From Gammaproteobacteria bacterium (lineage in GTDB: Bacteria > Pseudomonadota > Gammaproteobacteria > JAUZRS01), in the NCBI GenBank assembly GCA_030949385.1, contig JAUZSP010000009.1, positions 1 through 64,000 on the forward strand: 64,000 bases of DNA, in the 5' to 3' direction. The notes under the pieces are model-generated. The model saw only the letters and a program-made list of their open reading frames with translations. It made no database searches and was not told where the DNA came from. How positions within the stretch are numbered: position 1 is the first letter of the stretch; each line of letters starts with the position of its first letter. Of this stretch, positions 28,868 through 35,865 are shown piece after piece. The position numbers and the translations under genes are program-made.

Positions 28868-30962
28868 TTGACAAACCCCAACAGTTTACGTCTTATCATT
28901 ATCGACAGCGATTTTCACAACGCCGAAACCTGCAACAGCGCACTGCGTGCTATGGGTTATGCCATCAAACCAACCCGAGTAGCAACTCAAGATGATCTAG
29001 ATGATGCGCTTAAAAATGACCCTTATGAATTGATCCTCTACTGCATTGGTGCAGAGGTTCTCAGTCTGCAAGAGACGCAACAATGTCTCAATAACAATCA
29101 AAAAAACATCCCCGTTATCGCCTTAAGCAACAAACAAAATGAAAAAATTAATCCTGCTGAAATTATGCAACAAGGCGCTACCGATCTGATTCAAAGTGAA
29201 AACTTTCAACATCTAAAACAGGTCATCAAACGCGAACGCCGCCACTTTCAAAATCAACAACATCTGGAAAAAATAAATACCCTCTACAGTCACAGCGAAA
29301 AACGCTCGCAAGCGTTGATGAACAGCTCCCGTGATGCCATCGCCTACATTCACGACGGCATGCACATCCAAGTCAACGCGACCTATTTGGAGCTGTTTGG
29401 TTTAGAAGAAGAAGATATAACCAGCACACCCATCATGGATATGGTGACCACCGATCATCAGAATAAACTCAAAGAATTTTTACGTCATCAGCACAAAAAC
29501 AAAAAAAGTCAGTGGCAAATTAGCGATTCAACTGCTGCACTCAGACCAAAAAACCCCCTTTAGCGGCGAAATGGAGTTCTCTCCCGCCAGCATCGACGGC
29601 GAGCAGTGTACTCAAATTATCATTCGTGATCGCAGCGATGCCAAAGAACTGGAACGCAAACTTCTACATCAAAGCCGTACCGACTCACTCACCAGCCTTT
29701 ACAACCGCCAACACCTCACCACTCTGCTAGCACAAGAGGCAAAAAAAGCAAAAAATGGCAACCACAAAGCCACCTTGCTGCAAATTCGTCTTGACGATCT
29801 GGGTACCATTCAAAAAACCTGCGGAATTATCGGTGCCGATCAATTTTTAGTCGCCATCAGCAAAGTCTTGCGTGAGGTAGCTGATCCCAAAGACCTGCTG
29901 TTTCGCTTTACCGGCCCAACCTTTATGCTGCTCAGCCATGAAAGTGATACTGAAAAAGCCAAGCACTACGCGCAACGGATCATCTCTCGGGTTGAAAAAT
30001 ACATCTGCACCCTAAGCGGTCACACCACCTCCAGCAGCTGCTGCATCGGTATTTGCCAAATCGACGACAGCACCAAAACCGCTACCGATATTTTGTCACG
30101 CTCAGATCGAGCCCTAAATACCGCCATCGACAATAAAGACGACGACAGCAGTTTGTCTCTCTATCAACCCAACACGGCTGAACAAAGTCAAAAGCAAGTG
30201 GATCACACTTGGGCACAAAACATCACCAAAGCATTGAGGAATAATGGCTTTCGTCTTTTATATCAACCTATCGTGGCACTGGAAGGCGATCACACCGAAC
30301 GCTACGAAGTGGACATTCGCCTGCTGGATGAAAACAATAAAGAGTTGGCACAAACCGAATTTCTCAATGCAGCTCAACGCACCGGCCTCTCCCGTGGCAT
30401 CAACCGCTGGACAATCAACAAAGCCATTGAGCAACTGCACAAAAAACACAAATCAGGCAACAACACGGTCTTTTTTATCAAATTGACCAAAAATGCTCTA
30501 CAAGATCCCGACCTGTTTCGTCACATTCATCAACAGATCAAAACCGTTCGCATCGCACCGGACAGCTTGGTTTTTGAGATTGAAGAAGAGACTGCCCACA
30601 GTCAGCTGAAGCAAGCCCGCGCCTTTGCCAAAGCACTGTTACAGATCAACTGTCGAGTGGCCATATCCAACTTTGGACGCAGTGCCAAACCGTTCCAACT
30701 GTTTAAACACGTACCGGCTCAATACCTCAAAATTGATGACGACCTGATGGAAGAGCTAAGCAGCAACAGCGAAAGCCAAGCTGTGGTGCAGGCCATTATG
30801 GCCGAAGCAAAATTGAAAAAAATCGCCACCATCGCTCCCGGAATTGAAAATGCCAACAGCCTTTCCGTGCTCTGGAGCATGTCTGCCGATTACATCCAAG
30901 GCGGATTTTTACGCCACGCCAGCGAAAACCTCGATTACGATTTCAGTGCCATGAGCGCTTAA
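28868..30962 (+). CDS. FimX-like REC-PAS-GGDEF-EAL protein, degenerate, with one frameshift
   Basis: Reading from a TTG at 28868 gives a receiver-like domain (residues 1-130), a PAS domain (about 145-240), a GGDEF domain and an EAL domain, 697 residues after correcting one extra base in the A6/C5 run at 29548-29558. As read, the first part stops at 29563 and the frame resumes by 29571. The GGDEF site reads TGPTF and the EAL site reads EVD, so neither cyclase nor phosphodiesterase activity is expected. This is the pattern of FimX, a c-di-GMP receptor that controls type IV pilus assembly. Pilus genes lie 17 kb away in this window. The phosphorylatable Asp of the receiver is not evident. Confidence 0.85.
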
Positions 30963-31207: not shown

Positions 31208-33335
31208 ATGGACATAAAATTATCCACACTTTCAGCGGGCATTTTAACCTGCACATTAGCCAGCTTCAGTCACTCCGCATTCGCTCTTAGCCCCATCGCC
31301 TTAGAAGGTGAAACACTGTACGGCAACCTCTGCGCCGGTTGTCACGGCAGCAATCCGGCCAATGACAAACGTCGCATCACCCGTGGCGTTACCGCCGCCG
31401 CCATTATCGGCTATCACGGCACCGGAAAATCCAGCACTGCTGAATCAACTAAAATCGCCACCTACATCGACGAAGTCATTAACGGCAGTCCTGTGACGGC
31501 TCCAACCACGCCACCGCCGCCCGCCCCGACACTCTCAGGAGCCGACCTTTACGCCGCCGCGTGTTCTGGCTGTCACGGCGCGGATCCTGCCAATGGCCGC
31601 AATAAAATAGCCAGAGGCACCAGTGCCAGCACCATTGTGGGCAAACATGGAACCCAATATTCATCCAGTACCGAATCCGCTTTAATTGCCACCTACATCA
31701 GTGGCCGCGTGGCTCCCGTACCAACACCACAACCCACCACTCCACCACCTGCTCCGGTTATTCCTCCCAGCAGCAATTTACTTCCGGTTGTGGATTTTAG
31801 AAACGGTGTCTACCCTACACCCAATTATCAAGGCACCCAAGACACCTACATCTCACAAATCACCCCCGATGTGAATCATGGCAATGAAACAACCTTACTC
31901 ATTGATGGAGCCAACCCCAGCCCCAATGATGAAAGCACCTTAATCTCTTGGGACATCACCAGCATCCCCAGCAACGCCACCATCGACACAGTGAAACTCA
32001 CCTTCAATGTCACCAATCCAACGGATCAAGCCTACGGCATCTATCAAGCCTTAAAACCTTGGGTAGAAAACCAAGCCACCTGGGTCAACTACGCGGCTGG
32101 ACAAGCCTGGACTCAAGCCGGTGCCAATCTGCTCTCTGAAACCTTAAGCAACAGCGGTGTGGTCACCACCAACAGCAACCCAGATCGAGGCGTGTTAGTG
32201 GACACGGTCAACGTCATCGACACCGTCACCTCCGCGTCTACCTTCAACCCAACAGCCATCGTACTGACACTCAACAGTTTGGGCGTTGATATGGTGCAAG
32301 GCTGGGTTAATGGCAATCAACCCAACTACGGCATCATCATCGCCGACACCAACGTCACCAACGGTCTGGACATTTCATCCAGCGAAGATCCCGTGCTTAA
32401 TAATCGTCCCAAACTTTCTGTCAGTTACACCGTTCCTAACGGCACCGCAGGCGAAACTGGAACTGGAACTGGAACTGGAACTGGAACTGGAACTGAACTG
32501 AACTGGAACTGGAACTGGAACTGGAACTGGAAACACCACACCACCTGCGGACAACAACACCCAATCCGGTCAAGCCATCTACGCCAATGCGTGCGCAGGT
32601 TGCCACGGCAGCGATCCTGCCAACGGCAGAAACAAAATCGACCAAGGCACCGTTGCCACAAAAATCACCGCCAAACACAGCTTTGTCACCTCAGGCGATG
32701 CCGATAAAGTAGCCGCTTACATCAGTGCTGCACTGACCGGCCAACCGGCACCAACCGCACCCGTAGTCATTCCTCCTCCACCTGCGCCCGTCACCTCCAG
32801 CAACGGCGCACAACTCTACGCCGACCAATGTGCGGTCTGTCATGGAGCCAACCCCGCCAATGGCGACAACAAAATTGATCTGGGTACCAATAAAGCGATC
32901 ATTCTGGGCAAACACAGCTTTGTGATTGATGCCGACGCAACAGAAATCGCCGCCTTTATCCAAACCTCGCTCAATAATGCCGCCGCGCCAATTGGCAGCA
33001 ACAACACCGGCACCGGCAGCAGCACCGCCAGCCCCTCGCAGCTCTACGCTGACCTCTGCTCCAGCTGTCACGGCGATGATCCCGCCTATGACAATTTTGG
33101 TATTCTCGTGGCCGCAACCGACGCCGCTCGAATTGACCACTACTTTGTGAAACAAGACGATGCGGCCAAAATCGTACCCTTCATTCAAGAGCGCAAAGCA
33201 GCAGCAGACACCGCAGCAGCCGTGCGCTTGCCCACGCCCACAACAACAAGCAGCTCCACCAGTAGCGGTGGCGCACTCACTCCCCTCTGGCTGATGTTGC
33301 TCGGCCTCATCGGCTTAGCACGCCGTCGAGGTTAA
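31208..33335 (+). CDS. Secreted pentaheme c-type cytochrome with DNRLRE-type domain and GlyGly-CTERM (frameshifted)
   Basis: The protein starts with a signal peptide (MDIKLSTLSAGILTC... cleaved near AFA/LSP). It has two heme modules (C42-A-G-C-H46 and C119-S-G-C-H123), then a domain at about residues 195-415 that resembles DNRLRE/CBM96 (DTYISQITPDVNHGNETTL, LISWDITSIPSNATI). A Gly-Thr repeat linker and three more CxxCH modules follow. It ends with a GlyGly-CTERM signal (SSGGALTPLWLMLLGLIGLARRRG region). Two 5-bp units in a 6-bp repeat at 32459-32534 shift the frame; as read it ends at 32707. Restoring two G residues gives 709 residues. In each heme module a His follows the CxxCH histidine (24 residues later in four, 23 in the last) and Met is absent, suggesting bis-His ligation. 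The function is unknown. Confidence 0.82.
32459..32534 (+). repeat. GGAACT hexamer tandem repeat with two 5-bp units
   Basis: Six GGAACT units are followed by two GAACT units, four GGAACT units and a terminal GGAAAC. In frame they encode a (Gly-Thr)n linker of the cytochrome. The two short units cause a net loss of two bases and throw translation into a Trp-Asn repeat that soon stops. Confidence 0.95.
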
Positions 33336-33353
33336 AAACTAAGCCCACAAAAA

Positions 33354-33381
33354 AGCCCCAGACTGTTTTCAGTCTGGGGCT
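33354..33381. terminator. Bidirectional intrinsic terminator between the cytochrome gene and parC
   Basis: A perfect 12-bp stem (AGCCCCAGACTG / CAGTCTGGGGCT) has a TTTT loop, an A run on the left and T8 on the right. It lies between two convergent genes and serves both strands. Confidence 0.9.
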
Positions 33382-33423
33382 TTTTTTTGCCTGCATTTTA
33401 ACGCTTAAAATACTGAAGCTAGG

Positions 33424-35718: not shown

Positions 35719-35801
35719 TTGCTCGTCATTCCCGCGCACGCGGAAATCCAGATAAAGTCTTGACCAGCTCGCATAGATTCCCGCCTTCGCGGGAATGACG
35801 G
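35719..35801. repeat. REP-like palindromic element, copy 1
   Basis: Two inverted GC-rich arms (GTCATTCCCGCG...CGCGGAAAT and ATTCCCGCCTTCGCGGGAAT followed by GACG) form a BIME-like unit. Its outer ends match those of the second copy at 44085-44170. It sits between parC and pgeF. The left arm is more decayed than in copy 2. Confidence 0.8.
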
Positions 35802-35802
35802 A

Positions 35803-35865
35803 TCTTATCAGCGCCAAGTCGGGTCTTATCAGCGCCAAGTCGGGTCTTATCAGCGCCAAATCAGT
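35803..35865. repeat. Three tandem 21-bp units covering the 3' end of pgeF
   Basis: Three adjacent copies of a unit beginning TCTTATCAGCGCCAAGTCGG are seen; the first two are identical. The third contains the pgeF stop codon and last two codons, so the 3' end of that gene appears to have been duplicated twice into the spacer, next to the REP-like element. Confidence 0.9.

Follow-up and report, generated by a model that had tools for sequence, protein, structure and literature searches.

A putative surface-anchored pentaheme cytochrome with candidate distal histidines at a helix end in a gammaproteobacterium

A secreted protein with five CxxCH motifs and no evident distal Met raises two questions: how its hemes are ligated, and what such a string of hemes might do. 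The gene was analysed within a 64,000-nucleotide stretch of DNA (the window; Table 1). An earlier preliminary description of this locus had proposed five bis-His heme modules of identical type, arranged as a surface-oriented wire. The neighbouring genes are unrelated to the pentaheme gene, with a c-di-GMP gene upstream and parC downstream on the opposite strand. The pentaheme gene is read as monocistronic, as part of a joint reading as a surface-anchored pentaheme c-type cytochrome that we hold to be fairly likely. A 21-bp repeat (2.9 copies, 35799-35859) lies further downstream, between parC and a pgeF-like gene.

Table 1. Features of the pentaheme locus, in window coordinates
Feature	Position	Strand	Remark
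Putative pentaheme surface cytochrome gene	31208..33335	+	frame broken at 32495-32504; first frame stops at 32707
Signal peptide, aa 1-26, AFA cleavage motif	31208..31285	+	predicted, by sequence inspection
Heme module 1, CAGCH (H46), distal-His candidate H70 (31415-31417)	31292..31483	+	
Heme module 2, CSGCH (H123), distal-His candidate H147 (31646-31648)	31523..31714	+	module modelled with AF2
DNRLRE domain (CBM96-like), about 200 aa, between hemes 2 and 3	31838..32422	+	NF033679
(GGAACT)n hexanucleotide tract, encodes Gly-Thr linker	32455..32532	+	
Heme module 3, CAGCH, His +24 at 32676-32678	32553..32744	+	
Heme module 4, CAVCH, His +24 at 32913-32915	32790..32981	+	
Heme module 5, CSSCH, His +23 at 33138-33140	33018..33209	+	
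GlyGly-CTERM sorting signal GGALTPLWLMLLGLIGLARRR	33264..33329	+	TIGR03501, above curated cut-off
Strong intrinsic terminator 3' of the pentaheme gene	33349..33387	+	hairpin -29.8 kcal/mol, z -6.8, then U run

As sequenced in the window, the gene would yield a diheme product without an anchor. Hemes 1 and 2 lie in the frame that opens at 31208, and hemes 3 to 5 lie in another frame, which runs to the stop at 33335. The break falls in the hexanucleotide tract, where two adjacent repeat units (32495-32499 and 32500-32504) read GAACT in place of GGAACT, each having lost one G; the net shift of -2 terminates the first frame early. The orthologue in the sister genome (G001, the one other member of the genus among the genomes searched) is a single open frame of 694 codons, giving a 694-aa protein with all five modules and no hexamer array (L034:3449-5533; contig JAUZRS010000290.1 of the MAG AMOR20_M1286, apparently from Arctic Mid-Ocean Ridge vents). 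The five modules that had been proposed after correction of the frame were recovered, with two in the first frame, three in the second and five in the intact orthologue.

Two one-base deletions within a repeat tract could mark a true pseudogene in the sequenced strain, with hemes 3 to 5 and the anchor lost through the break. This is unlikely given the intact orthologue and the dN/dS between the two genes, which is 0.08 before the break and 0.06 over the 270 codons after it and indicates purifying selection on either side. The adjacent upstream gene is broken as well: an additional A in an A7 run near 29501 divides a response regulator-PAS-GGDEF-EAL gene (28868-30962), which the sister genome carries undivided as one 701-codon frame. 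Because the orthologue is unbroken and both breaks fall in low-complexity tracts of neighbouring genes, both are likely to be assembly indel errors. Phase variation through the GGAACT repeat was also considered and was discarded, since gain or loss of whole hexamer units leaves the frame unchanged.

In the corrected protein, the counts of the preliminary description were reproduced: a His follows the CxxCH His at 24, 24, 24, 24 and 23 residues in modules 1 to 5, and neither a Met nor a second extra His lies within 45 residues of any motif. The source genome (G000) holds eight such modules, five in this protein and three in a paralogue, and the absence of the distal Met characteristic of class I cytochromes extends to the surroundings of all eight CxxCH motifs (no Met within 45 residues). 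The paralogue (G000 C6, L008:6064-7935, 623 aa) is unbroken and joins an NHL propeller to three modules, each with a His at +24, and to a GlyGly-CTERM of its own. The description of the modules as identical had to be given up, as the eight share 28-70% identity with a mean of 40%.

Alignment of the eight modules yielded nine invariant columns (Y10, C14, C17, H18, G19, P22, I38, H42 and I59), and the identical set was obtained from 15 modules, eight in the source genome and seven in the sister genome. The +24/+23 His is the only His outside CxxCH in each module. Its retention in homologues, a check set by the preliminary description, was found in 15 of 15 modules of the two genomes (at +23 in the fifth module), so that a second His is available as a ligand in each; this conservation rests on two species plus one paralogue, close modules being very rare. 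The mature orthologue contains ten Cys, all within CxxCH, and 11 His, namely five proximal, five at +24/+23 and one elsewhere. Random placement of one His per 45-residue stretch confines all five to two neighbouring offsets in about 1e-5 of draws, a figure that serves as a yardstick only because the modules are homologous copies; module-wide conservation is the stronger evidence. No other potential ligand is invariant save Tyr10, the usual aromatic residue of the first helix.

Because the only extra His is invariant and Met is absent, bis-His ligation through the +24/+23 His is probable. The hemes might instead be five-coordinate or weakly ligated, with a helix His that does not bind or that leaves on reduction, and serve not as relays but as centres that react with peroxide or gas. 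Small c-type hemes without Met can indeed be ligand-exchange centres, cytochrome c'' being an example, and here the Met loop is shortened and the His stands at a helix end. However, the His is invariant across modules of such low mutual identity, its position is aliphatic in Met-type relatives, and five linker-joined copies fit a relay better than catalysis, which together make reactive centres quite unlikely.

The modules score above the curated cut-off with the Pfam cytochrome c models (PF00034/PF13442), and we regard them as class I-like mini-cytochrome domains of about 60 residues, with a predicted fold. The AlphaFold2 model of module 2, built without heme, has a pLDDT of 90 and a pTM of 0.78. 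It places helices at residues 6-13, 15-18, 35-42 and 49-63, with the candidate His as residue 42, the last in its helix. The leading structural matches to this model, TtX183A (Z 7.8, rmsd 2.1, 61 aligned) and, tied with it, PgcA domain II (Z 7.6, rmsd 2.3, 57 aligned), have VIA Z values below 8, which are insufficient alone to prove kinship; c6C, OmcF and PgcA domain I were further matches. A Foldseek search of the model against the PDB gave no significant E-value. A profile of mixed His- and Met-type modules matched PgcA domain II at 9e-9 over nearly its full length, and His-only profiles matched PgcA weakly (0.005 and 0.0004).

Alignments with Met-type relatives (L037, L043, L044, L047 and PgcA domain II) suggest how the two types are related. 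In the relatives, an Ile or Leu occupies the helix roughly 6-7 residues ahead of the Met, whereas the His-type modules have the His at that aliphatic helix position and have mostly lost the Met-bearing loop. The His is therefore not a point exchange for Met: of the bis-His proposal, the ligation itself is favoured by a sole extra His that the orthologue and the paralogue both retain without exception and with which no Met competes, whereas the idea of a plain His-for-Met swap needs revision. An Ile or Leu at the matching position in the Met-type relatives is consistent with a heme-facing site, and the route we infer is that ligation passed to the helix residue and the loop became shorter. An attempt to match the His to the Met of PgcA through residue counts to the chain ends was abandoned, because indels on either side make the count ambiguous.

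The term wire, also used in the preliminary description, does not suit the layout of the protein. The linkers between neighbouring modules are rich in Pro, Ala, Thr, Gly or Ser and measure about 19-23 residues in the orthologue, against 12-26 for those of the paralogue; hemes 2 and 3 lie about 268 residues apart with the DNRLRE domain included. A rigid, closely packed heme stack of the OmcS or MtrC kind shares with this protein the placing of several hemes, here five, on a single secreted chain. In such wires the motifs are dense, whereas here they are at least 76 residues apart; moreover, the MtrC/MtrF domain model PF22113 scores 19.4 against a cut-off of 30, and the modules are predicted to fold as monoheme class I domains. 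A packed wire is thus very improbable, and the linker lengths and the interposed DNRLRE domain favour tethered diffusion.

A close parallel for such a layout is the triheme PgcA of Geobacter sulfurreducens (8QJ6, 8QJG, 8QK0), an extracellular protein for which tethered diffusion has been shown and whose domain III is bis-His and mineral-active (PMC11520253). Both proteins consist of monoheme class I-like domains of about 60 residues on flexible Pro/Thr-type linkers, and the ligation of PgcA domain III resembles that proposed here for all five modules. The ligand positions differ: PgcA has His/Met ligation (+27) in domains I and II and a His at +32 in domain III, whereas a helix His at +24/+23 is found in five of five pentaheme modules. 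The pentaheme protein also differs in its internal DNRLRE domain, its GlyGly-CTERM anchor and its gammaproteobacterial host. Gammaproteobacterial arrays (L043, L044 and L037) likewise repeat CxxCHG mini-modules within one long protein, but each of their modules has a Met candidate, at about +26 to +31. Two of them, L043 (G046 C5) and L044 (G101 C222), are Met-type mini-cytochrome arrays in frames of 1432 and 706 aa; in L043 two module subtypes alternate, with Met at +26 and at +31.

The surface orientation that had been proposed became firmer through the C-terminal signal and its processing machinery, the location itself being assigned by analogy. The genome encodes a rhombosortase (TIGR03902, 135 bits against a cut-off of 84) and the type II secretin GspD (597 bits against 351), together with about ten more GlyGly-CTERM proteins. 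Among eight GlyGly-CTERM loci examined over approximately their last 525 residues, CxxCH occurs in two, the pentaheme gene and the NHL paralogue. In V. cholerae, GlyGly-CTERM proteins are cut by rhombosortase and receive a glycerophosphoethanolamine moiety, and the type II system delivers them to the cell surface (PMC6219818, PMC13393428). By analogy, the pentaheme protein would be a surface cytochrome, and its C-terminus would be cleaved and attached to lipid. It resembles the VesB-type substrates in this signal but differs from them in kind, as the latter are mainly proteases and nucleases (PMC3237569, PMC6219818, PMC13393428); the words cytochrome and heme are absent from the two of these papers whose text was searched.

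The DNRLRE domain scores 75 bits with NF033679 (cut-off 34) and is 99% identical between the two species. A sequence search of the PDB with this domain gave no match, and its AlphaFold2 model (pLDDT 35) was too low in confidence for use. The DNRLRE family includes the alginate-binding CBM96 (PMC9971899), and by this analogy contact with carbohydrate or matrix is probable; the domain may hold the heme string in matrix polysaccharide.

The same domain, with its alginate-binding relatives, could suit a redox partner for polysaccharide oxidation, similar to the X183 proteins of Teredinibacter and Cellvibrio, with the DNRLRE/CBM96-like part keeping it on its substrate. TERTU_2913 and TERTU_3803 of Teredinibacter turnerae and Cbp2D are likewise large extracellular proteins that combine mini-cytochromes with lectin- or carbohydrate-binding-type domains (PMC10916295), and an X183 domain, TtX183A, is among the nearest structural matches to module 2, level with PgcA, a likeness seen from structure only. 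In contrast to the pentaheme modules, X183 domains are His/Met (+33/+32), with potentials of +11 to +124 mV and other partner domains, and isolated TtX183 domains failed to drive an LPMO (PMC10916295). No LPMO_10 was found in the genome either. A role in polysaccharide oxidation is accordingly a distinctly improbable one for this protein.

A lipid-anchored, tethered string of bis-His hemes for surface electron exchange, working in a PgcA-like manner, is our preferred reading, with a probability of about 0.6. For its ligation, anchoring, potentials, tethered electron exchange and electron partners we infer the following scheme. Sec would carry the protein to the periplasm, where it would acquire its five hemes. 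After cleavage of the GlyGly-CTERM by rhombosortase, the newly formed C-terminus would become linked to a lipid headgroup; the type II system would then bring the product to the outside of the outer membrane, as demonstrated for VesB in Vibrio. The sixth iron ligand would be the invariant +24/+23 His, which closes the helix that precedes the shortened Met loop, and bis-His ligation would give low-spin, low-potential hemes. The linker-hung domains would exchange electrons by collision, in tethered diffusion as in PgcA and without a packed heme stack, while the central DNRLRE domain would retain the string in matrix polysaccharide or on another surface. No MtrB/PioB porin was found in the genome, so the canonical outer-membrane electron route was not found.

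Tethered mini-cytochrome proteins are already known from PgcA (PMC11520253) and the X183 proteins (PMC10916295), as are tandem Met-type arrays from the L043 and L044 sequences. Neither an all-His set with a helix ligand nor a GlyGly-CTERM-anchored cytochrome was found in the cited literature or in the 369, 398 and 370 genomes sampled (partly overlapping). We tentatively propose an undescribed class of mini-cytochromes, whose distal ligand has shifted out of the Met loop to a His of the preceding helix and which occurs in tandem in a rhombosortase-anchored surface protein, as a bis-His tethered relay in a lineage that lacks an Mtr-type porin. The protein appears to be a low-potential electron relay on the surface of a deep-sea gammaproteobacterium, of a kind for which few proteins are known. 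If true, an all-bis-His, GlyGly-CTERM version from an unrelated lineage would widen the class of tethered heme proteins and would suggest a second route for their surface anchoring. Its compact modules of about 60 residues would further allow direct tests of how the ligand shifted from a Met in the loop to a His on the helix.

In the genomes searched, the His-type family has so far been seen in one genus only. A search of 85k genomes for related loci returned the sister MAG as the only close relative, and samples of the class and phylum at 1e-6 yielded nothing beyond both genus members and a single genome whose modules are of the Met type. When the cut-off was loosened to 0.01, the matches consisted mostly of the CxxCHG helix alone. 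Plasmids and viral contigs searched for related modules gave no match. The relatives listed for the source genome are one genome of the same genus and otherwise genomes of the same class only, so the lineage seems very sparsely sampled.

Several minor observations were made alongside. A 94-aa single-module cytochrome (L041:1504-1695, G780) has His at both +24 and +26 (IHQHRF); no relative was found within its order, and it therefore adds little. In the NHL paralogue, an Asp-rich stretch precedes the GlyGly-CTERM, and the protein matches ScyF-like NHL proteins below their cut-off. On the same sequence as the paralogue, L008:12125-15484 encodes an RNase E-like protein whose C-terminal region contains a long QAEATA-type repeat.
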